From a virus, in the IMG/VR virus record IMGVR_UViG_3300017963_003169, positions 1 to 48,372 of that record: DNA of 48,372 bases, one strand, 5' to 3'. The translations under genes and the position numbers were made by a program. Under the pieces are notes generated by a model. The model saw only the letters and a program-made list of their open reading frames with translations. It made no database searches and was not told the DNA's origin. Below are positions 2,454-44,618 of the stretch, piece after piece (position 1 is the stretch's first letter; each line of letters starts with the position of its first letter).

Positions 2454-3398
2454 TTATGCTACACTCCTTATAAGAGCTATACTGTTATTGTATCTATCAC
2501 ACAAAACCATTATATCATCTATTCGTGCTAAACTATCAATCCATTCTGAAGGTATACTTCCTAAGCCATAATAGACACCGGCTAATCCTCCAATAACTGC
2601 TCCTGTAGTATCTGTATCACCCCCAAGATTTATAGCAGCCAATACTGATTCTTTATATGTATCATATTTCAGAAATGTCCATAATGCTGCTTCCAAAGTA
2701 TGTATGACATAACCGTCAGACTGAATTTCGTCTATGTCTATATTAGATATATTACCATCCAGAATTCTATTAAAATGTGGTAATTCATCATACAGCTGAT
2801 TATCGATATAAAATCTATAGCCTAATTCCACCATAGAATGATATGCCGCTAATCTATCCTTACCTGATAGCAATTCGGAAAGCATAATGATATATAACCC
2901 ACAGGCTATCTTTGATCGTGGATGAGCATGAGTAATGCTGGATATATCATGTACCATAAACAGTTTATCGGCTAAATATTCATTTGGATAATATACTGCT
3001 GGTAAAATACACATTAACGAACCATTACCATTGCTTGCAACATCTCTACCTCCCGAATCCGCTGGACTAACACCATTGTTAAGACTGGCTATAGCCGTTC
3101 TGGTAGTATTGCCTATATCGAATACTCTGCCGTATGATGTCCATAGAGCTTCATTATACCATTTGGTATAGGCTTCAGCTATTAAATTAAGATCATATCC
3201 TACACAAAGCTGCTCAGTTAAACATAAAGCTAAAGAGCTATCGTCTGACCACGTTCCTGCTGGCTGATTATGTGTGCCATAAGCCATCATATCAGATACT
3301 GGCTTCCTGTTCCTTGTAGCCCTATCTTGGAACTCTACAGGCACTCCTAAAGCATCGCCTACTATTAAACCTATTATACCATCTTTACAATTCACCAA
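2454..3398 (-). CDS. ADP-ribosylglycohydrolase (DraG/ADP-ribosyl-hydrolase family)
   Basis: 314 residues, close to the usual family length. The N-terminus DGIIGLIVGDALGVPVEF is the family signature. It is followed by GTWSDDSSLALCL, the first metal-binding acidic cluster, and near residue 255 by NLGGDTDTTGAVIGGLAG, the second Asp cluster. These aspartates bind two Mg ions. The family removes ADP-ribose from arginine or other protein sites or from small molecules. The frame begins with TTG at 3398, with GGAAGGA 7-8 bases upstream; GTG at 3395 is an alternative. It overlaps the 109-aa gene by 7 bases and so is co-translated with the MuF/ART-like protein two genes upstream. Reversal of, or immunity to, that domain is inferred. 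Confidence 0.9.
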   Translation of the reverse strand: MVNCKDGIIGLIVGDALGVPVEFQDRATRNRKPVSDMMAYGTHNQPAGTWSDDSSLALCLTEQLCVGYDLNLIAEAYTKWYNEALWTSYGRVFDIGNTTRTAIASLNNGVSPADSGGRDVASNGNGSLMCILPAVYYPNEYLADKLFMVHDISSITHAHPRSKIACGLYIIMLSELLSGKDRLAAYHSMVELGYRFYIDNQLYDELPHFNRILDGNISNIDIDEIQSDGYVIHTLEAALWTFLKYDTYKESVLAAINLGGDTDTTGAVIGGLAGVYYGLGSIPSEWIDSLARIDDIMVLCDRYNNSIALIRSVA

Positions 3399-3721
3399 GT
3401 ATACATCCTTCCCGGTACTGCTCTGAAAAATTCAATCATCTCTTCTCTGGTACGAAATTCCGGTTCTCCATCAATCTTACTCTTGACGTTTTTATTATAT
3501 TCATTTAATGTTAATGGAATGAATTTATAAACCCTGCCATCTTCACCTTTAGCTATTATAGCCTCACCTTCTTGACTTATCTTTGCTCGGTCTATCATAC
3601 GTTGATGGTTCATATCAAACCACGATATATTTCCGGTTACTTCTTCAACATTGATACCGATTAAAGCAGTTCTGTCCTGCCGTGATGTTATTCTGTACAT
3701 ATCTTCTATATCAAATATCAT
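3392..3721 (-). CDS. Small protein between the MuF/ART-like and glycohydrolase genes, 109 aa
   Basis: Starts at ATG 3721, whose ATGA overlaps the stop of the MuF gene, and its own stop overlaps the glycohydrolase start. The middle shows a beta-meander-like pattern (YRITSRQDRTALIGINVEE, then NISWFDMN, EAIIAKGEDGRVYKFIPL); the end is a short helix (TREEMIEFFRAV). No family is recognised. Its position directly after a possible toxic C-terminal domain makes a cognate immunity or accessory role plausible, but that is inference from location only. Confidence 0.65.
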   Translation of the reverse strand: MIFDIEDMYRITSRQDRTALIGINVEEVTGNISWFDMNHQRMIDRAKISQEGEAIIAKGEDGRVYKFIPLTLNEYNKNVKSKIDGEPEFRTREEMIEFFRAVPGRMYTW

Positions 3722-6700
3722 TCCATTAAATCTCCCATTTCCCTTGCTACTCGTACAAAATCCTCAACTCTTTTCCCATTTATCTCTTCCATACCAGCAG
3801 CCCTTAAAGCATCAATCGCTCTATCAGCCTCCTGTCGTGTCCTAACAATTACATTATCTATAGCATCAGGGCCTATAGCCTTTCTAAACATTACTTCATT
3901 ACCAGACCTCAAAAAATCATTCAACTCTGTCGTCAATTCAAGTGGATTAGGAGCTTGACTTAGTGAATAAGGCCTTGTAGTACCATAATTATCAGATAAA
4001 TATCCATAATGATCAAGTCGTCCTAACTCTTTTGGGCTAATCTTAAAAGTATGTCCATAACTTATCCCAAACCTCCGGCCGTCATCACTCTTCGGTATGA
4101 GTCTGGTAAAGACACTATCTGCTCCGCCTGTGCCAAAATCTGAACTTGTAGACATACCATCTACCAAAAGGCCTCTATCATATCTTTCTTTTGATGACAT
4201 AAGTCCATTTTTAACCACATTTACCAAAGCATCATTATCTAACGTACTACTATGATGTATGAGGGATTCTGCACCATTATCACTAAAAGTTTTAATAACT
4301 GAATCAGGCATACGATATGTGCCATAGCCATTGGTGATTTCATTATATGATGTTTTGTTTATTATGGCAGATGCTTGGTTAGGCTTGAATCCTGCATTTA
4401 TCAAGGTTTCCTTTACTTCTTTTCGTAATTCTGGCAGTTTCATTGTCTGGAATTCTTGTCGCTGAGCCAAGGCTCTTGGCTTATCATATTGCCACATAAG
4501 TTTATTGTAAATCAATCGCTTCTCATCTGTTCCTGTTGGAATTTTCAAGAAATCTCTGTTTAATTTCAAGTCGCCAAAAGCCTTCCTAACAACACTTCGC
4601 ATTTCATCTATATCACCGGCATCCACCGTCAAACGTACACTACCTGTTAGAGCATGAATCCCCTGACCAGCAGCATCATCCACTACCTCGAAGAGATAAT
4701 TATCACCCTTGAATCTTGCTCCCTTAGCCATAGTCTTAGTAAAACTATCGGCATGTGGCCCAAGGATATGATTTCCATCTTTATCTATCACAGGAAATCG
4801 CTTTTTATATTCCCAAGGTGCTTTATTACCTCTAGCAATTACCTTTTTAGTAATATCATCACCAGTTTCCTTGAACTGTAACAAAAATTTTTGTTTACCT
4901 TCTTCAGATATTCGTAATATTTCAACATCATGATTTTCTATTCGCCGTCTATCCATTCGTAGATGTTGTGCAGGACCATCCTCAAATATTCCAATATCCA
5001 CATTATCTAAAGCATCTTCTGCTATAGGAGCAGGAGTTGATATAACAGGTTCAGGTAATACTCTTGGTGTTCTTAATATTATACCAGTATCAAAGCCTTT
5101 ATCCGGCTGTAACGTAGTAGGATTAGATACAGTATATGTCATATTAGATGTAACTGGAATGAGCAAACACCTGCAATTATGCGATACTATCTGATTAGCA
5201 ATATAACTTTCATCATCTTGGACACTAAGGTTATAGACGTAGCCTTCGTAATGTTCTTGTTTGATACCCGGATTAGTACAGATACCTACTCCCGGTAATA
5301 TAGATTGTACTTCATTCTCATTAGCAATCTGAGATAATTGCTTTGCTCTTTCTTCAACGTCATAATAATGTACCTTTGGATGACAACTAACACATAAAGT
5401 AATAAGATTCTCCATCCTAGAATTCATCTTATCATTATCAATATGATGAACAACTTTAATACCTCGATATGTGCCACATAACTGACAGATATTACCATCT
5501 CTTCGTCTTATTTCTTTTTTTAGTTTGTCTGTAAAACCATCATCATAAGGCTTCTTTTTTATACCACCTTTCCATGCTAGATTATTCTCTAGCTTATGAC
5601 TATATACTCCAGCTTCAGCAGCACACCTAGTCGAACAATGTTCTTTATAATTTCCGGCAGTAGCATATACCCATGTCCCGCATATAGGACACTCATGGCT
5701 TCGTTGCACTTCAGGCTTAACGATCATTTCTTTAGGGTGTGATAAATTTTGTTTAGCCCATATTCGTGCTATTTCTCGTCTTAATGGATTATTTGTCCAT
5801 TGCATCTTACTCTTAATAATTTGCAATGTGATAACTCTATCATCTAATTTGAGTTTTTCTGCTTCTTTCCATCCATCATCAGTCAATATCCTATGATTAG
5901 GAGTACATTTAACATGCTCACCATTCTCTAATTTTAAACTAATTATCTCACCATTATACCATTTCTTATGTAAACCTATAACAGGTTTCCAATTCCCTAA
6001 ATGAGTAAGAACCAAAGTTCCCTTCTTTATCTTCTCAATAGGAATTGGTCTGTTATTTCTTGGCCTTACTTTATTGGTTATCATCGTACCGGGCAAAAAA
6101 CAATTAAATCCGTTCGGAGGTGTCCAAAGCCCCCATATAGGGTCATCTCTGGGATATATTCTACCATCCATAGCTGCATGAGTTTCTCGTGTTCTCTCAT
6201 CCAGTATAGCACTATACTCATAAGCTGGCACAAAGTCCATTACATCAGGGTCGTTCATCATATTCCATCTACCACGATTATATATGGTAGAGAAATTCGT
6301 CCTGAGTATAGTCTCTGTATGAAATGGTGTTAATGGCTGTCCTTTTCTAGCTTGTGTGCCAAAGACTGTGCCTGTATACTTGACATTGGCTTCTTTCAAC
6401 CCACGTTGAAACTGCTGTAATGTCCATCCTTCATCTACTGCCTTGCTCACTAGCTGTCGTGTACTATTGAGCATATCTTTATCGACTATACCTGCCACAG
6501 TAAATGCTCTGGCTCTTTCCCTAGCTACCATCTTATTGAATTCGGCTTTACTTACTAATTGCCGTCTGCCAAACTCTGCCAATGCCTCTCTTGGCACTAA
6601 GTCTACAGGCTCTTGGAATATGCTAACCCCGCGCACTTTTATTCTATGCCCTAATGAATTCTCTATCTCTTTACGAGCATCATATTTACCCTTGAAGTAT

Positions 6701-6981
6701 GTATAACCAAAGGCATTTAGTAGATGCGCCCGCAATTTAGCACTATTAACTGTGATTTTCTTTAAGTTGGTTAATCTGCCTGTCTTGAGTATCTTATGTC
6801 GTTTAACCTGATTGACTATGTTTTGTTCAATATCCTGTATATCTTTTACAACTGTCTTGGTAGCAGACTGAACTCTATTCTCTTGCTCTTCTGCTCTCTT
6901 CAGGAAATCTATCTTGGTAGCTTCCTCGAATTTACTTAATGGCCTTAATAATAACTTCTCAGGTATTATTGCTACTGACAT
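3718..6981 (-). CDS. MuF-type phage minor head protein with HNH intein and C-terminal ADP-ribosyltransferase-like domain
   Basis: 1087 residues from ATG 6981, which has AAAGG eight bases upstream; a TTG 39 bases earlier lacks a site. Residues about 1-290 form a MuF (phage head morphogenesis) region ending in ILDERTRETHAAMDGRIYP and PPNGFN. A 309-residue intein (294-602) follows, and the host protein resumes at CRCLLIPVT, so the spliced junction reads PNGFNCRC, the family's normal ending. About 300 residues of unassigned linker precede a C-terminal domain (about 907-1087). This has LIHHSSTLDN (cf. the PARP-like LxHxS motif), GMSTSSDFGTGG (an STS motif, 944-946) and SGNEVMFRKAI with a candidate catalytic Glu at 1029. 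The first Glu/Gln of a full ExE is absent. MuF proteins enter the capsid, so the domain may be delivered with the DNA. The MuF and intein calls are firm; the ART call is inference. Confidence 0.88.
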   Translation of the reverse strand: MSVAIIPEKLLLRPLSKFEEATKIDFLKRAEEQENRVQSATKTVVKDIQDIEQNIVNQVKRHKILKTGRLTNLKKITVNSAKLRAHLLNAFGYTYFKGKYDARKEIENSLGHRIKVRGVSIFQEPVDLVPREALAEFGRRQLVSKAEFNKMVARERARAFTVAGIVDKDMLNSTRQLVSKAVDEGWTLQQFQRGLKEANVKYTGTVFGTQARKGQPLTPFHTETILRTNFSTIYNRGRWNMMNDPDVMDFVPAYEYSAILDERTRETHAAMDGRIYPRDDPIWGLWTPPNGFNCFLPGTMITNKVRPRNNRPIPIEKIKKGTLVLTHLGNWKPVIGLHKKWYNGEIISLKLENGEHVKCTPNHRILTDDGWKEAEKLKLDDRVITLQIIKSKMQWTNNPLRREIARIWAKQNLSHPKEMIVKPEVQRSHECPICGTWVYATAGNYKEHCSTRCAAEAGVYSHKLENNLAWKGGIKKKPYDDGFTDKLKKEIRRRDGNICQLCGTYRGIKVVHHIDNDKMNSRMENLITLCVSCHPKVHYYDVEERAKQLSQIANENEVQSILPGVGICTNPGIKQEHYEGYVYNLSVQDDESYIANQIVSHNCRCLLIPVTSNMTYTVSNPTTLQPDKGFDTGIILRTPRVLPEPVISTPAPIAEDALDNVDIGIFEDGPAQHLRMDRRRIENHDVEILRISEEGKQKFLLQFKETGDDITKKVIARGNKAPWEYKKRFPVIDKDGNHILGPHADSFTKTMAKGARFKGDNYLFEVVDDAAGQGIHALTGSVRLTVDAGDIDEMRSVVRKAFGDLKLNRDFLKIPTGTDEKRLIYNKLMWQYDKPRALAQRQEFQTMKLPELRKEVKETLINAGFKPNQASAIINKTSYNEITNGYGTYRMPDSVIKTFSDNGAESLIHHSSTLDNDALVNVVKNGLMSSKERYDRGLLVDGMSTSSDFGTGGADSVFTRLIPKSDDGRRFGISYGHTFKISPKELGRLDHYGYLSDNYGTTRPYSLSQAPNPLELTTELNDFLRSGNEVMFRKAIGPDAIDNVIVRTRQEADRAIDALRAAGMEEINGKRVEDFVRVAREMGDLME
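5176..6102 (-). other. Intein with HNH homing endonuclease, inserted in the MuF gene
   Basis: The 309-codon segment begins with Cys in block A (CFLPGTMITNK), has block B with the TxxH motif (CTPNHRILTDDGW), and ends in block F/G (VYNLSVQDDESYIANQ, then VSHN) before Cys+1. That is a standard class 1 splice set: Cys1, penultimate His, terminal Asn, Cys+1. In the middle are a zinc-finger-like part (CPICG..HCSTRC, host residues 431-453) and an HNH nuclease (ICQLCGTYRG, VVHHIDND, MENLITLCVSCHPKVH, 492-538). Both splice codons were checked on the DNA. All key residues are present, so splicing is expected to work. Confidence 0.95.
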
Positions 6982-7158
6982 AATATATACCTTTATATAA
7001 CACTTGTTATTGTCAACCAAACTTTAGTAAAGAAAATACGTCTTTTTATTCACAACTGTTAATAGGACTTAAAATTCCCTGTATGCTATTTCATCATCTG
7101 AATGATATATATATAACCTACCCGACTAGAATCTCGTTAGAGACGAACTACGACCGTT

Positions 7159-8577
7159 TTAAGTGGTCTTCTGTAAGGCATCATTAAGCAGTTCACATCT
7201 AGCCGCTGTTTCAAGCATCTCTACTTCTATATCATTACTACCATCAGGGCTATAGAATTTATATGGTTCATCGAAAGTTATAGCATCTTGAGCCATCTCC
7301 GAAGCTACTGTCTTCGTGAATGGCATTATATTGAGATAATCGCCTATCCATTTTCGTATATCAGGATCGTTAGGGTCAATGAATCCAGCAGTAGATAAGG
7401 TAGCAGCTATCTTTGCTTTTACCTCGTTGCTCTCTTCAGTCAATGGATAGAATTGGAATTCAGGAAATGTATTAACAGGAAAATTCCATCGAATGAGTGG
7501 TGTGGTAAGCTGTTCATGCATGATCTCTTCTAACATCCTGCCTAAATGCCATAATATACCTATAAAGAGGTCAAATTGTTTCTTACCTAAAGCATAACTG
7601 CCTGTAGAGCCTTTATCCGTGAAGCCTAATAGTTCAGGCACTAACAATGCTCTGGCTATCATCGTATCACGTTTATCAATAGCTTTTGTGTATATATCAG
7701 AGCCAGTCCTGTCCATAGTGACTGTATCTATCTCCACACCTTCTGGCTTGATAGCTTCTGTATGTATCTGTAAATCTTCTAATATTTCTAATAGTTTAGC
7801 TTTCGTATCTTCATCAGTACCGGCAGGATATGTACCAATAAGGAATGGACTTGGATAACGTTCCAGCCATATAGCCTGAAATCTCATTATAACATCTTTC
7901 TGCCACCATGGGATATAAGCCGCTTTCAAGTCCGATATACCATAAGGATTTTCCCACTCAGGCATCCATGACGATATTAGAAATTTATCGACTGGTAGTA
8001 TAACATCTTCTCCACCCTGTTTTTGTGTTAGAGACTCTATATTATTGAATTTATCCATATTAAAGGTGAAATCATGTGGTTTCTTGCTCTTAATACTCGC
8101 TAAGCCTATCTTACCAGCAAATTCACCTTCGGTAATAGGATAATAGTTTTCTTCCAGTATGGAATAGCCATAATCTAAACACGTCATCATACCCAATAGA
8201 AACTTAATGACTGTACCCGGTATCTGTGTCAACTGCTGGTCGTAATATTTAGCGATTAATACGTCTTGTTGAGAATCGCTGGCTGGCTTGATAAACCATT
8301 GAGTAGATAGTCTGGTAAACTTCTTTACAAATAATGTCGCCTTAACTGTGGAGTCCTGTTTCATGGTATCAAATATACTTAAGCCTTTTTTCTCCACTAA
8401 GGTATCGGGATTATGCTGTAAGCCTAAAGCATCCACGATCATAGTATTTCTACCAGTGGCTAACTCCTTACCTACCCAATCGGGATTTATCTTCCCATCG
8501 TCTTTAGGGTCATCTACCTCGTCAAATACGGAGTTATGTCTAAGACTAAGGTCATACCTATCGTCTCGGTTATTCAT
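7159..8577 (-). CDS. Phage portal protein, Mu gp29-like (DUF935 family)
   Basis: 472 residues, start ATG 8577 with AAGGAG upstream. Recognisable family features are the early VKATLFVKKFTRLSTQWFI block, a central segment with KPHDFTFN, and MIARALLVPELLGFTDKGS followed by a helix ending in NFP. The portal forms the dodecameric ring at the capsid vertex through which DNA is packaged and ejected, and it docks the terminase. The order terminase-portal-MuF is the standard head-gene order and supports the call. The stop is followed by about 180 bases without a gene before the MuF start. Confidence 0.88.
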   Translation of the reverse strand: MNNRDDRYDLSLRHNSVFDEVDDPKDDGKINPDWVGKELATGRNTMIVDALGLQHNPDTLVEKKGLSIFDTMKQDSTVKATLFVKKFTRLSTQWFIKPASDSQQDVLIAKYYDQQLTQIPGTVIKFLLGMMTCLDYGYSILEENYYPITEGEFAGKIGLASIKSKKPHDFTFNMDKFNNIESLTQKQGGEDVILPVDKFLISSWMPEWENPYGISDLKAAYIPWWQKDVIMRFQAIWLERYPSPFLIGTYPAGTDEDTKAKLLEILEDLQIHTEAIKPEGVEIDTVTMDRTGSDIYTKAIDKRDTMIARALLVPELLGFTDKGSTGSYALGKKQFDLFIGILWHLGRMLEEIMHEQLTTPLIRWNFPVNTFPEFQFYPLTEESNEVKAKIAATLSTAGFIDPNDPDIRKWIGDYLNIMPFTKTVASEMAQDAITFDEPYKFYSPDGSNDIEVEMLETAARCELLNDALQKTT

Positions 8578-12075: not shown

Positions 12076-12912
12076 ATGGAAAGGAAACCATATCCCAGCG
12101 ATCTGAACGATGCCGAATGGCAGATTATTAAGCCGTTGATACCACCGGCAAAACCAGGTGGTAGACCTCGCAAAACAGATATGCGAGAAGTGCTCAACGG
12201 CATATTCTATGAATTGCGTGGCGGCTGTGCTTGGCGAATGCTTCCCCACGACTTGCCACCTTGGCAAACAGTCTATCACTACTTCCGTCAATGGAAAGGA
12301 GACGGAACCTGGGAACGCATGAATCAAACACTCCGTATAAAGTTGCGCATGGCCGATGGCCGAGAAGCTGAACCCAGCGCAGCAATAATGGACAGTCAGT
12401 CGGTAAAGACCACTGATGTAAAAGGAATCCGGGGTTATGACGCAGCTAAACAAGTCAAAGGACGCAAGCGTCACATTCTGGTAGATACCATGGGATTGCT
12501 TCTGATGGTTCTTGTTCATGCCGGCAACATCCAGGAGCGAGATGGAGCCAAACTCCTTCTGAATAAGGCCAAAGGTTGCTTCACCCGTCTTTGTTTGATC
12601 TGGGCAGATGCTGGCTACAACGGTAAAGCGATGATAGACTGGGTCCGTAATACCCATGGCTGGATACTTGAGATTGTGAAGCGTGATAAAGGCGTCAAAG
12701 GCTTTCAAGTGTTACCTCGTCGTTGGGTTGTGGAACGCACGTTCGCCTGGTTTGGTGACTATCGCCGATTGAGCAAGGATTACGAAGTACTGACTGAGAC
12801 CAGCGAGGCTATGATTTATGCTGCTATGGTCCGCTTGATGGTGCGTCGTCTGGCACTTAAGTCTGTTGAACCAAGAGCTAATTCACAGACAACATCTAAG
12901 GCAGCTGCATAG
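12076..12912 (+). CDS. IS5-family transposase (DDE)
   Basis: 278 residues. The N-terminal part ([44 protein letters not shown]) is the DUF4096-type DNA-binding region of IS5 transposases. The catalytic triad is visible as [10 protein letters not shown] (D), WADAGYNGK (D) and [12 protein letters not shown] (E), with the usual YREK-like R spacing after the Glu. It appears full length and unbroken. It is the only convincing plus-strand gene in the window and has more GC-rich codons than its neighbours, in line with recent arrival. Confidence 0.95.
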
Positions 12913-13499: not shown

Positions 13500-14531
13500 T
13501 CAAGCACCCATTATATCAAGCATCTTATCAATATTCTCAGAATATCTGGCTGTATAAGACAAAAAAGTTTCAGTCATATCTAAAGCCCTTATGACCTTCT
13601 GAACTGCCTCATTAAACGTCTGGTACAAAAGCCGCCTATCGTTAACCAAAACATCCACATAGCTCAATTTGGCAGGGCATATCGGTATACAGCCTAATGC
13701 TAATCCTTCATTAAGAGCATATCCAAATGTCTCTTGATCTGCTGAAGAGAATAATACCTTTGCCCTTGCCAGTTCATCGTAATATTCTTGCTTGGTAAGT
13801 CCTGTCTTAGCTACGATATGAGCAGGAAAGGTGAACCCAGGAATATTACTGGCTAATCGTTGTCTCGAAGTGGTCACTATACCTTCTACTGCTCTTCGTT
13901 TCTGTACTTCTTCTACAAGGTCAAAGAATATCTGTGGATTTTTCTCCTTATCTATCCTGTGTGGGAAAATTATTACCTGCTCTTTCTTGGTAACATTAGA
14001 TTGGATGCTCTTATGATCCCACACTAGCCCGGTATCATAAATATGGCTTAATCCTGTCCAGCCTTGAAGAAGCTCTTTATGGTATCTACTACCAACAAAT
14101 ACATAGTCAGCTAGAGTAAGCCAGCCCATTTCATTATGCCGCGCCCATTGCCTCATCTTATGGGTGAAATCATTAGGGTCAAAGACTCCCGCATAATGGA
14201 CACCGGCAATTACAATGCTAAGACCAAGCTGACTTTCCATATATCGCAACATCTCAATTCCGGGAAACCAGAGGTCAGCTATAAAGAATATGTCGCCATC
14301 GGATACCTTGTCATCATGGAATAGTTGGCACAATTTCTGTAACTGTATCGCCTTATAGTAATTCGTACCTACGGCATCCAAAACTTCGCCATGTGTTATG
14401 CCCTTAGTCAATGGCTCGCCAGCTACCACAGTGTAAGGCACATCACATCGCTGGAATCCATCTATGACCCACTTATACATCTGGGCAGTATATCTCTCTT
14501 CTAGCGGCTCTAATGGCACATACCACAACAT
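13500..14531 (-). CDS. Glycosyltransferase, GT4-like (GT-B fold)
   Basis: 343 residues, ATG 14531 with AGGAGAAGAAAA upstream. The C-terminal Rossmann half has VIIFPHRIDKEKNPQIFFDL and the EX7E-type motif ETFGYALNEGLALGCIPI, which binds the sugar nucleotide in GT4 enzymes. No signal peptide or membrane span is seen, so it works in the cytoplasm. It lies directly upstream of the DpdA-like gene in the 7-deazaguanine operon, so its acceptor could be modified phage DNA, a virion protein or a host glycan; the sequence does not decide. Confidence 0.85.
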   Translation of the reverse strand: MLWYVPLEPLEERYTAQMYKWVIDGFQRCDVPYTVVAGEPLTKGITHGEVLDAVGTNYYKAIQLQKLCQLFHDDKVSDGDIFFIADLWFPGIEMLRYMESQLGLSIVIAGVHYAGVFDPNDFTHKMRQWARHNEMGWLTLADYVFVGSRYHKELLQGWTGLSHIYDTGLVWDHKSIQSNVTKKEQVIIFPHRIDKEKNPQIFFDLVEEVQKRRAVEGIVTTSRQRLASNIPGFTFPAHIVAKTGLTKQEYYDELARAKVLFSSADQETFGYALNEGLALGCIPICPAKLSYVDVLVNDRRLLYQTFNEAVQKVIRALDMTETFLSYTARYSENIDKMLDIMGA

Positions 14532-14541
14532 TTTTCTTCTC

Positions 14542-15600
14542 CTATGACCATGGATCTATCAGCACTTTGCCACACTGTTTCGATGATTGTAATTCCCATG
14601 CTCGCTCAACCTGACTCATAGGCAAAATATGAGTGACCATTTCATCAATCTCCGAGCGATTCTCCCGCATAATCTGCATCAGATGTTCATATCCTTTAAG
14701 GTTGTAATGCCAGATACCATGTATTGATATACCTTTTAGATTTATCTGTGGAGTAACAACCGCTTCGATACTTCCGCCTTGTCCTATCAATGCTATCTCA
14801 GTCTGGATGCCAGCACAAGCTAAGGCTAAAGCTCTGCCACTCTCACTGCCCGAACATTCCAAAATATATCCCGGCCCTCCTGAGCTATCTATGACAACTT
14901 CTTTCACTTTAGATTCTATATCAGCCTCGCCTGTCATAAAGACAATATCAGCACCAACACTCTTGGCTATCTCCCCCCGATATTCATGCTTCGCAATCGC
15001 TATGACGTTCTCACCATAATGCTTGCCTAGGATTATAGCCCCTAATCCAACAGGCCCACAGCCAACGACCAAAGTGTACCCATTACCTGCTTTTAACATC
15101 CGCTGATATGCCCCATAAGCCGGGCCAAAACCGCATAAAGCCATCATAGCATACTTGAAATCAATATCATCGGGGATTCCTGTTAGAAGCCATGACGGCT
15201 TTAATAGATATTGAGCATAAGAGCCTGTGCCTATACTCGACCCTATCACATCTTCATACGAAAACCCATGAGGGCAAAAGATATAATCACCCGATTGACA
15301 AAATCTGCATTTACCACATGATAATAACGGCTGTACAACGACCCTATCGCCTACCTCATAACCTTCCGAATGACTCTCTTCGATATAGCCAACTGCTTCA
15401 TGTCCTAAAGAACAACAATCTCCGCTAATGACACCACGATAAGGATATGTGAACTGCTCATTATTTATATACCCCTTATATTCAGTACATGCCCCCGCAT
15501 ATACAACTCGTATCACCACGAGAGGCTCTTTAGGAACTGGCATAGCTTGATTGATTATCGTTACCTTATGATCAATAACTGCCGCTACCTTCATTGTCAC
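14542..15600 (-). CDS. Zinc-dependent medium-chain dehydrogenase (alcohol/sorbitol dehydrogenase type)
   Basis: 352 residues, a normal length. Visible are the catalytic-zinc Cys in YAGACTEYKGYI, SLGHEAVGYIEE, the four structural-zinc cysteines CGKCRFCQSGDYIFC, and the NAD(P) loop VVGCGPVGLGAI. The substrate is probably a polyol or a sugar derivative. The start is GTG 15600 with GAGG close upstream, or ATG 15594. The upstream ThuA-like gene originally ended at this start before a 112-bp duplication. It is unusual cargo for a phage and may supply a sugar for the neighbouring glycosyltransferase. Confidence 0.88.
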   Translation of the reverse strand: MTMKVAAVIDHKVTIINQAMPVPKEPLVVIRVVYAGACTEYKGYINNEQFTYPYRGVISGDCCSLGHEAVGYIEESHSEGYEVGDRVVVQPLLSCGKCRFCQSGDYIFCPHGFSYEDVIGSSIGTGSYAQYLLKPSWLLTGIPDDIDFKYAMMALCGFGPAYGAYQRMLKAGNGYTLVVGCGPVGLGAIILGKHYGENVIAIAKHEYRGEIAKSVGADIVFMTGEADIESKVKEVVIDSSGGPGYILECSGSESGRALALACAGIQTEIALIGQGGSIEAVVTPQINLKGISIHGIWHYNLKGYEHLMQIMRENRSEIDEMVTHILPMSQVERAWELQSSKQCGKVLIDPWS

Positions 15601-15824
15601 ATGACCTCATGTTCACCAAAATATACTTCTACCGGTCTATCGTAGCTACGATTCGCCCATATTATAGCATTAGATATTATTTTCATCACTATAGGGTTAT
15701 CGTAGATACGATATGACCTCATGTTCACCAAAATATACTTCTGCCGGTCTATCGTAGCTACGATTCGCCCATATTATAGCATTAGATATTATTTTCATCA
15801 CTATAGGGTTATCGTAGATACGAT
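15601..15824. repeat. Tandem duplication, two 112-bp copies
   Basis: 15601-15712 and 15713-15824 are identical except for one base (ctaccgg versus ctgccgg near 15632 and 15744). The unit carries the last part of the ThuA-like gene. Since 112 is not a multiple of three, the copy nearer the dehydrogenase gene is read in another frame, and the gene now ends 15 bases inside it. Near identity implies a recent event. Confidence 0.95.
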
Positions 15825-16431
15825 ATGTGCCATGTCCCGGCCTGAAGTAAAAAATTCGCCCCCGACCCCTATTATAGGCACAACCACTACGGAATATCTC
15901 GCCTCCTGCAAACCAGCTTATAAAAACTAGTTCATCAGGAGTGGGAATATCAAACCGTTCGCCATACATCTCGGCTTCAGGAATTTCTATATACTCAGGC
16001 AAATCTTGAGCTACTGGATGAGCGGGATTGACAACCCAAATTCGCTCCATCTCAGCCCCATGCCGCCATTTAAGGTTACAGGTTGTACCCATTAACTGCT
16101 TGAATACCATAGAAAAATGTGACGAATGCAAAGCTACGAAGCCCATGCCATCTTCTAAAATTCTTCGTACTATTTTATCTACAATAACACGGTCAACCAA
16201 TTCATGATCCATGTGCGCCCACCATACCAATACATCAACATCATCTAAAACGTGGTCAGGCAACCCATGATATGGCTGTTCCATAGTAGCCGTACTGACC
16301 AAGAGCCGGGCATCAGGTAATAATTTCTCTGCTAAGGTGGTATGAACACCATCCGGGTAGACAGTAAGCATTTCTTTCGTACCTTCATCAACCCTGTTAT
16401 CACACCATATCATCGTCTTTATCGGCTGCAC
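15697..16431 (-). CDS. ThuA-like protein (class I glutamine amidotransferase-like fold)
   Basis: 244 residues from GTG 16431, which has AAGGAG upstream; ATG 16413 is an alternative. Family features include MIWCDNRVDEG, DVDVLVWWAHMDH, ILEDGMGFVALHSSHFS, NPAHPVAQDLP and GRIFYFRPGHGTY. The ThuA fold resembles class I glutamine amidotransferases but lacks the catalytic Cys, and roles in trehalose or other sugar metabolism have been proposed. Owing to the tandem duplication the C-terminus is changed from an original end at HEVM to HEVISYLR. The core is intact, so activity is probably kept. Confidence 0.85.
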   Translation of the reverse strand: MQPIKTMIWCDNRVDEGTKEMLTVYPDGVHTTLAEKLLPDARLLVSTATMEQPYHGLPDHVLDDVDVLVWWAHMDHELVDRVIVDKIVRRILEDGMGFVALHSSHFSMVFKQLMGTTCNLKWRHGAEMERIWVVNPAHPVAQDLPEYIEIPEAEMYGERFDIPTPDELVFISWFAGGEIFRSGCAYNRGRGRIFYFRPGHGTYRIYDNPIVMKIISNAIIWANRSYDRPAEVYFGEHEVISYLR

Positions 16432-38730: not shown

Positions 38731-39003
38731 TTACTCGAAGCCAGCCAACTCCATTAACTCATCCATGTCCTTATCGCTATTATCAGAAACTAGATGATCC
38801 AGTAATCCTTCTTTATACTGTTTAGCAATCTCCACCAATCCACCCAGAACCTTATCCTTTGGAAAACCACCACTAATATTGAATGTGGTCTTTTGTTTTC
38901 CATCTTTATCAAGATATATAGCACAGGCAAATTGTGGAATTATACTACTTTCTGGCATTTCTTTCTTGGAACTCGATGACTTCATCTGTACTATCTTTGG
39001 CAT
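38731..39003 (-). CDS. Hypothetical protein, 90 aa
   Basis: ATG 39003 overlaps the stop of the PfkB gene. The N-terminal 20 residues are basic and Ser-rich; then CAIYLDKDGKQKTTFNIS and a helical acidic tail (DKDMDELMELAGFE). Not recognised. Confidence 0.65.
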   Translation of the reverse strand: MPKIVQMKSSSSKKEMPESSIIPQFACAIYLDKDGKQKTTFNISGGFPKDKVLGGLVEIAKQYKEGLLDHLVSDNSDKDMDELMELAGFE

Positions 39004-40010
39004 TATTTCTCCTCTCCATACAATAGATTATATTCTGAATCCCATTCTTGATTACTAATAACTCTAGCACCATTCGTTTTATAACACTGTACTCTGGCAG
39101 CCGCATTAGCTCTCTTAATAGCCGAAATACTATCCATGCCTGATGAATAACAAATAGTATAAGCCGCTACGAAAGTATCACCACAGCCACAGGTATTGAT
39201 CTCACCTCCTGCCTCTTGTGACCTGACTAAAGTTTCTTTAATATCAGAATAATGAGTGTTATCTATATGATTAGGCTTATTGTATAAAGCCGCTCCAACT
39301 CCTCTTAATGTCAAGAGAATTTCTTTTGCTTTAGTCATCATAAATAAACTGTAAATTCTCGATATTCTATCTAAAGTAAGTTTAGAACCAGTATGATTTA
39401 TAAGTTCCTCTTCATCCAGAATGATAGTACCATTTAAACCTTTCAATAAAGATATACGTTGTCGGCTCATCCCTATAATAGGACAGGTAATATACTCCCG
39501 TATAGCATTAAGAATTAAAGGTGTTAATATGCCCTCACCATTCTCATCATAATCAGCCACAATCAATATATCTACTTCTTCTGATAAACACTGTATATGA
39601 CGTACTAGCTCATGCTGTACTTTCATAATAGGAGGCTCAATTACTTCATTAGCTCTGAATATATGCTCACCGATATCGGTATAATACTTTACATAAGCAG
39701 GAGTTCCATTACCTAATATCATGTGTTTGCTATTTACGAAACCCTCCATCCAGATATTATATAATTTTTTGCTATTATCATCCTCTAATGGATTCCACAC
39801 ACCACAGGGCAACACCCTGACACCCCACTCCTGAAGCAAGTCTACTATATTACCTGCTCCGCCGCCAGTATAAGACGTTTCTTTGGTGTCAAATATGCCC
39901 ATACCATCTTTCTCTCTGGACATCGCTATACCATAACTGCCAATATAGTCTTTATCAAGTGAATGGTCGCCTAAGACACCTACTATGGTATCACACTTTC
40001 TCCAATTCAT
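39003..40010 (-). CDS. PfkB-family sugar kinase (heptose kinase-like)
   Basis: 335 residues from ATG 40010, preferred to ATG 40016 for its AGGA spacing. TGGGAGNIVDLLQEWG is the N-terminal sugar-binding GG motif of the PfkB/ribokinase fold. NTCGCGDTFVAAYTICYSSG carries the GAGD-type anion hole and catalytic Asp, with Cys in place of the usual Ala. Features YVKYYTDIGEHIFRANE and YDENGEGILTPLIL recall HldE (heptose-7-phosphate kinase). With the GmhB-like phosphatase it could work on a heptose. Substrate unproven. Confidence 0.85.
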   Translation of the reverse strand: MNWRKCDTIVGVLGDHSLDKDYIGSYGIAMSREKDGMGIFDTKETSYTGGGAGNIVDLLQEWGVRVLPCGVWNPLEDDNSKKLYNIWMEGFVNSKHMILGNGTPAYVKYYTDIGEHIFRANEVIEPPIMKVQHELVRHIQCLSEEVDILIVADYDENGEGILTPLILNAIREYITCPIIGMSRQRISLLKGLNGTIILDEEELINHTGSKLTLDRISRIYSLFMMTKAKEILLTLRGVGAALYNKPNHIDNTHYSDIKETLVRSQEAGGEINTCGCGDTFVAAYTICYSSGMDSISAIKRANAAARVQCYKTNGARVISNQEWDSEYNLLYGEEK

Positions 40011-40299
40011 TATCATTCCTTTCTGTCCAATAATATAACAAGTCCATAGACTTAAGATAGTCTTTAATCATCTCGCCATTAGGAAAAGTATCAAATGATT
40101 TTATCAACATTTTCGTTGATTCTTCCATACCTTCTGCTGGTATACGAAGAATCTCAGCAAGGGTAATCATCTCTTCAGAAGCCACAGTCTTTCCCAAATC
40201 AGTCATACGATTTGCCAATCGTCTATAAGTCTCAACTAAATTTGTTTGTAACTTTGCTATTGTCGCATAATCTAATTGTATATCCGATAATTCAACCAT
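39991..40299 (-). CDS. Hypothetical helical protein, 102 aa
   Basis: ATG 40299 overlaps by one base the end of the DNA-binding gene. All-helical (YATIAKLQTNLVETYRRLAN, EEMITLAEILRIPAEGM). It overlaps the PfkB start. Function unknown. Confidence 0.65.
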   Translation of the reverse strand: MVELSDIQLDYATIAKLQTNLVETYRRLANRMTDLGKTVASEEMITLAEILRIPAEGMEESTKMLIKSFDTFPNGEMIKDYLKSMDLLYYWTERNDNELEKV

Positions 40300-43631: not shown

Positions 43632-44618
43632 CTATCTATCCCATAAGACTTTCACAATCTCAAAACCTTGATCATAATATGCTTGCTCTAATTGTTGATA
43701 CTGTGCTTCATCCTTATACAACCCTATTACTGCTCCGCCGCTTCCCGGCAACTTAACAGGACAATCTAATTCAGTAGCAATCTCAATCATTTTAATATTA
43801 TCCTGACCTATATCGCCATATAAACCCAATCTGGTAGTAAAATTCCATTTCATAAGATGACCGAAATCATCCATTTTACCTTTACCTAATACTGACTTAG
43901 CTCCCTGAGCTATCTTAGCCAGTTTAGCCATAGTCTCTATTACTTCTCTATCGCCTTGCTCAAATCTATACCGTATAGGATTATGTATCTGCCCTGATTC
44001 TTTACATGGATGATTGGTATAAGCTATAAAGGCTGGTGGTAACTCATAATATAACTGTTCATATTTACCATTATCAGGATCGGCTAAATCCATGTATACC
44101 AGGCCGCCATAAGCCTGTGCTACCCTATCCTGAAGGCCAGCAGTAATCCCTAATTCTTTATTCTCCACAGACCATGCTAAATGAGCTTTCTCAGCCTTCG
44201 TAATCTCTACCTGATAATATTCCAGTAGGCAGTTTAGAAGAGCCATTACCAAAGCACTAGAGCCTCCTAAGCCTACCTGTCGTGGTATTGTGGAATTATA
44301 TTTAATACTGAAGCCATACCCGGACTTCATCTCTGGCTGATACTGTTTCTGGAATAATGAACAGGTGGCCTTGATAAGCCGTAATGTACCATAATAGCCG
44401 TATTTTTCTGTATGGTTAGCTAAATCCTGTAATGACTTATAAGTCAACGTATCCATAGCAGTATTAGGCATTATAATTATACCTTCACGTCCTCGTGGCT
44501 CTATAGATACAAATGCTTGCCAATTCTTTACACAAGCTGATAACGTCTTGCCGTAGAAGCCATCTGAAGGATTCCCGGCTAATCCTACCCTTGCATATAC
44601 TGACGAAGAAATAATCAT
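43632..44618 (-). CDS. GHMP kinase, glucuronokinase-like
   Basis: 328 residues, ATG 44618 with AGTAGGAGG upstream. The N-terminus ARVGLAGNPSDGFYGKTLS is strikingly like plant and bacterial glucuronokinases. IPRQVGLGGSSALVMALL is the ATP-binding GHMP motif 2, and LPGSGGAVIGLYKDE motif 3. The enzyme would phosphorylate a uronic acid or related sugar at C1, preparing a sugar-1-phosphate for activation. No nucleotidyltransferase is found nearby. It is the first gene under the 44638 promoter. Confidence 0.88.
   Translation of the reverse strand: MIISSSVYARVGLAGNPSDGFYGKTLSACVKNWQAFVSIEPRGREGIIIMPNTAMDTLTYKSLQDLANHTEKYGYYGTLRLIKATCSLFQKQYQPEMKSGYGFSIKYNSTIPRQVGLGGSSALVMALLNCLLEYYQVEITKAEKAHLAWSVENKELGITAGLQDRVAQAYGGLVYMDLADPDNGKYEQLYYELPPAFIAYTNHPCKESGQIHNPIRYRFEQGDREVIETMAKLAKIAQGAKSVLGKGKMDDFGHLMKWNFTTRLGLYGDIGQDNIKMIEIATELDCPVKLPGSGGAVIGLYKDEAQYQQLEQAYYDQGFEIVKVLWDR

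Follow-up and report, generated by a model that had tools for sequence, protein, structure and literature searches.

MuF polymorphic toxins consist of a MuF N-terminus and a toxin C-terminus, with a small open reading frame (ORF) directly after them (Jamet 2017, PMC5576092). ADP-ribosyltransferases (ARTs) are known to occur on MuF proteins, whose genes are generally followed by a small ORF of the immunity type. In the Bxa-Bsi-BAH system of a Bacteroides stercoris prophage, a small protein blocks a MuF-ART by binding to it, and an ARH1-like hydrolase removes the marks that the toxin leaves (PMC11699363). Here we analyse a related arrangement in the IMG/VR phage record IMGVR_UViG_3300017963_003169, whose entire length of 48,372 bases is referred to as the window, where a gene for a MuF minor head protein with a C-terminal DarT-like domain is followed by a gene for a protein of 109 amino acids (aa) and by one for a DraG/ARH-type ADP-ribosylglycohydrolase. 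We read this locus as a MuF-type polymorphic toxin module, in which a delivered DarT-like toxin would be encoded together with two protective proteins, and give this reading a probability of roughly 0.55.

The window has the same layout as Bxa-Bsi-BAH, i.e. a MuF protein with a C-terminal ART, a small gene and an ARH-type hydrolase beside them, the likeness being one of layout; all three parts are present as genes and predicted structures. Bxa reportedly modifies arginine residues of proteins, whereas the ART domain of the window is predicted to fold like DarT, and an intein interrupts its MuF domain, unlike in the Bacteroides system. With the MuF polymorphic toxins in general it shares the MuF N-terminus, the toxin-like C-terminal domain and the small ORF directly after, but neither Pfam nor PHROG has a model for its C-terminal family, and the intein again sets its MuF domain apart. 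A MuF-ART with two protective proteins is already known; what is new here is the pairing of a DarT-like domain on a MuF protein with an ARH-type hydrolase; a search of the open-access literature on DarT together with MuF returned nothing on point.

An earlier note on this DNA had proposed a MuF head protein with an ART-like C-terminus and, in the same overlapping operon, a 109-aa gene and a DraG-type enzyme. Our analyses confirm the observation and support its interpretation with corrections. The MuF protein was correctly located, with its three motifs (LIHHSS, GMSTSSDF and SGNEVMFRKAI, at residues 920, 955 and 1039 in the numbering from the TTG start), and it matches Phage_Mu_F (PF04233, E 1.1e-15) and phrog_220 (E 2e-41). 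The MuF gene comes after the portal and terminase genes, beside a Portal_Mu gene (PF06074, E 1.3e-51) and another gene matching the phage terminase large subunit, and the MuF domain lies within this head-gene cluster. Its stop codon overlaps the start of the 109-aa gene (ATGA), which constitutes the ORF of <150 aa directly downstream and in turn overlaps the hydrolase gene. The three genes had been correctly recognized, while an HNH intein of 309 aa within the MuF gene had been missed.

Table 1. Features of the MuF locus in the window
Feature	Position	Strand	Details
MuF minor head protein gene	3718..7020	-	1100 codons from TTG; ATG start at 6981, as in the earlier note
Parts of the MuF protein			N to C: MuF domain, intein, linker, C-terminal ART-fold domain
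Intein with HNH endonuclease	5176..6102	-	309 residues; Intein_splicing PF14890 E 2.9e-15, HNH matches
C-terminal DarT-like ART-fold domain	3721..4413	-	residues 870-1100; Glu1042 probably catalytic; match to DarT from about residue 905 on
109-aa partner, probably an immunity protein that acts by binding, not as an enzyme	3392..3721	-	domain followed immediately by a homolog in 36 loci
DraG/ARH-type ADP-ribosylglycohydrolase	2454..3398	-	PF03747 E 3.7e-70; Glu22, SDDS and GGDTDT motifs

That the C-terminal effector is exchangeable is apparent from a sister phage (L104), whose portal is 62% identical to that of the window and whose MuF protein is 54% identical over residues 13-327 of the window protein. 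Residues 644-1100 have no counterpart in the sister phage, and the C-terminal part of its MuF protein is unrelated; the two phages thus have a common MuF part with different C-termini. A Pfam search with the C-terminus of the sister protein gave no match. As a separate observation, its motifs VYRG, SLNAFT and AHEVIL (L104, 3411-5093) resemble by eye those of a classic R-S-E ART.

The C-terminal domain of the window protein is covered by no Pfam or PHROG family, and its assignment depends on structure. The AlphaFold2 model built from the family alignment (predicted local distance difference test, pLDDT, 89.3; predicted template modelling score, pTM, 0.87) was placed in the ART superfamily by the fold search, the decisive check named in the earlier note. 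Foldseek against PDB ranked DarT1 (8baq, E 1.4e-5) first, followed by DarTG (2.8e-4), and VIA-align gave seven DarT chains Z scores of 13.2-10.6, the best superposition (Z 13.2) aligning 165 residues with a root mean square deviation of 3.9, while the next fold, tRNA 2'-phosphotransferase, reached Z 6.9. On this model, the domain almost certainly has an ART fold. It has in common with DarT and DarTG (PF14487; 8baq, 7omu, 7omw) the fold, the order of its elements and a Glu on the same strand, and Glu1042 aligns with the DarT catalytic Glu, though in weak alignments (the Pfam match and a profile comparison). Unlike DarT and DarTG, it is fused to a head protein, and its neighbours are a small protein without a Pfam match and a PF03747 ARH-type hydrolase rather than a macrodomain or NADAR antitoxin. 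The three motifs had been likened to the H/R, STS and Glu strands of ARTs: the Glu indeed occupies the DarT catalytic position, but GMSTSS lies off any strand in the model, the strand being formed by DSVFTRLI immediately after it, and the domain is DarT-like rather than R-S-E. The R-S-E reading of STS, an element misplaced relative to the R-S-E toxins, was consequently dropped after the fold result.

Single-sequence searches with the domain in viral_contigs and INPHARED detected no relatives, while a scan of bacterial genomes (genome_contigs) yielded six, and further members were recovered from viral contigs by alignment-based scans and from plasmids by a search. By profile search the domain is carried by about 92 loci and is nearly always the last domain of its protein; a MuF domain is present in 51 of these according to an iterated profile whose weakest matches are uncertain. 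The other carriers are phage proteins of about 2,150 aa, two proteins from Saccharibacteria, and proteins encoded on plasmids of Streptomyces and Mycolicibacterium. In two MuF proteins (L003, located within a bacterial contig as a prophage, and L011), the MuF and DarT-like domains are separated by a region that by eye resembles a kinase (HipA or PI4K-like). The long phage proteins (L027, L028, L050, L061, L086 and relatives, about 2,150-2,540 aa) carry the DarT-like domain at or near their end, and neither a MuF domain in them nor the small partner gene beside them was detected.

Eight residues are invariant in 55 of 55 aligned domains: Ser957, Asp961, Gly965, Gly966, Phe971, Asp1010, Gly1013 and Glu1042 (S88, D92, G96, G97, F102, D141, G144 and E173 of the 231-residue fragment, protein numbering being fragment numbering plus 869). 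Such invariance argues that the motifs did not arise by chance. Position 946 is Arg or Lys in all 55 sequences, and the Pfam DarT model is weakly matched by seven of them (best E 0.0021), the match in the window protein spanning the stretch with Glu1042. Taken with the predicted fold, these features make it quite probable that the domain is an active transferase.

The 109-aa gene, not the hydrolase gene, is the conserved neighbour of the domain. The earlier suggestion that it might encode an immunity protein or a partner was strengthened: homologs directly follow the domain in 36 loci. The protein matches no Pfam family. One further homolog lies slightly further downstream of the domain (L044), and none was found beside the domain proteins of about 2,150 aa. 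In 99% of pairs, sequence conservation is lower for the partner than for the domain (mean identity 20% vs 33%), and the partner has one invariant residue across 27 sequences; the correlation of partner and domain distances (r 0.85) is as expected, because the genes are linked. Linkage together with fast divergence is typical of toxin-immunity pairs, and on these sequence grounds the partner is probably an immunity protein. It carries no enzyme signature, and its AlphaFold2 model (pLDDT 89.6, pTM 0.82) is a compact sheet of seven strands with two helices. The fold search gave no specific match (best Z 6.8); PH-like matches, with Z under 7, were judged unspecific and not adopted as an identity.

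The hydrolase was also correctly identified as a DraG-type enzyme: its PF03747 score and its catalytic and metal motifs are those of an ADP-ribosylglycohydrolase. The closest solved chain is Listeria Lmo0067 (8za7, E 3.2e-88), with VPVEF, SDDS and GGDTDT aligned. Lmo0067 is numbered next to Lmo0066, described as a homolog of the type VII secretion system toxin EsaD, a delivery system different from MuF. As to whether the hydrolase is a paired reversal enzyme, a survey of relatives left the idea plausible but narrowed it. Among viral records no shorter than 24.5 kb, 5 of the 28 with the domain encode a hydrolase elsewhere, against none of 50 controls matched by portal, in which the domain is likewise absent (Fisher p = 0.005; window excluded). 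This comparison was drawn up once the association had been noticed; it is small, its phages are related and its records incomplete. In the prophage L003 the hydrolase lies on the same contig as the domain, about 7 kb away. Two Streptomyces plasmids (L031, L033) have the domain gene, then a small gene, then an annotated ADP-ribosylglycohydrolase family protein about 5-6 kb on. By analogy with Bxa-Bsi-BAH, we lean slightly towards a hydrolase that would reverse the mark placed by the MuF domain; it is likely a second protection, locally acquired.

Several results weigh against the toxin module. The hydrolase adjoins the domain in none of the 50 domain-bearing records scanned, so that adjacency is unique to the window phage, and in other phages it lies kilobases from the domain and is only about 28-31% identical to that of the window; both the hydrolase as a conserved partner and a recent common origin of all the hydrolases were accordingly dropped. 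In one study, the ARH enzymes tested failed to reverse ADP-ribosylation of RNA at bases or at the 2'-OH, being active on phosphate ends (PMC11833690), so that the target may be a protein, or the hydrolase an unusual one. The Pfam DarT score of the window domain is 12.8 bits, below the 22.5-bit cut-off, and a profile-profile comparison (hhalign) with six DarTs was not significant (E 0.13, probability 0.5%), for which reason we term the domain DarT-like and not a DarT in spite of its fold. The His of LxH is kept in 44 of the 55 aligned sequences and absent in the remaining members. Finally, MuF toxins are said to be carried by temperate phages, and no integrase or resolvase was found in the window record, which is possibly incomplete; the relative L003 lies in a bacterial contig.

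The best surviving alternative is that the hydrolase is unrelated to the MuF domain, countering ADP-ribosylation by host defences or serving NAD/ADP-ribose turnover, and owes its position to an accident of a late-gene cargo slot. This would accommodate the adjacency restricted to one phage, the hydrolase being distant or absent elsewhere, and the occurrence of phage ADP-ribosylglycohydrolases in large phages of unrelated type. We nevertheless consider it the less probable account: the gene stands in an overlapping operon with the MuF toxin gene, the portal-matched phages differ from those with the domain in the survey above, the same three-gene layout has been tested as immunity in Bxa, and the closest solved relative is numbered next to a secreted toxin. 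Alternatively, the 109-aa protein could serve the C-terminal domain as a chaperone or as an adaptor for loading into the head. Its small binding-type fold and the position of its homologs beside the domain in most MuF-type loci would suit such a role, which we regard as unlikely given that small ORFs of the immunity type generally come after MuF toxins, that Bsi works by binding, and that a homolog also follows the domain in L002, a bacterial contig whose domain-bearing protein showed no MuF domain, although the 5' end of that protein is missing. A catalytically dead domain that keeps the ART fold as a binding or structural module would fit the loss of the LxH His in some members and the non-significant sequence match to DarT, but is highly improbable, given the invariant Glu1042, Ser957 and Asp961 and the Arg or Lys at 946, and because it would leave the partner gene and the hydrolase association without reason.

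Under the toxin module, the MuF N-terminal domain would place the protein in the phage head near the portal, as its family suggests, once the intein had spliced out, and the toxin would be delivered with the phage DNA, as is the standard inference for MuF proteins. The DarT-like domain would then act in the newly infected cell on nucleic acid or protein. In the producing cell, the 109-aa protein would bind and block the toxin, as close linkage and fast divergence suggest, and the hydrolase might clear the ADP-ribose that escapes, in keeping with its family and the Bacteroides precedent. The bacterial toxin DarT attaches ADP-ribose to DNA, at a base in single strands, and given a fold like that of DarT the target here could be a nucleic acid. 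The narrower scheme, in which a head-delivered DarT-like enzyme would ADP-ribosylate nucleic acid in a cell just infected and the DraG/ARH-type hydrolase would reverse this, appears doubtful. Our results define a family of DarT-like domains that stand at the ends of head proteins and of other large proteins of phages and have a small partner family of their own, in records tied to several bacterial phyla. A phage might in this way modify DNA, RNA or protein at entry, and the question arises of whether hydrolases of the ARH type are able to act on marks of this kind.

The intein extends from Cys307 to Asn615 and interrupts the MuF domain between PPNGFN and CRC, so that the mature MuF protein would comprise about 790 aa. 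It is absent from the MuF protein of the sister phage and was not found in other domain-bearing loci, except for a weak match in one (L026); the open-access literature on inteins and MuF held nothing on point. Its location inside the delivery domain of the toxin suggests a possible control over the timing of active head protein.

Elsewhere in the window, an IS4/5-family transposase (12076-12912, + strand) stands amid phage genes on the opposite strand; a comparison with plasmids gave no match. Three regions (13500-16431, 39003-40016 and 43632-44618) hold sugar-metabolism-like cargo, namely a glycosyltransferase, a zinc alcohol dehydrogenase, ThuA, and PfkB and GHMP kinases. In L018, another locus of the family, the head gene that comes next (7115-8113) includes the sequence DMLLYRGV, which by eye resembles an ART motif.
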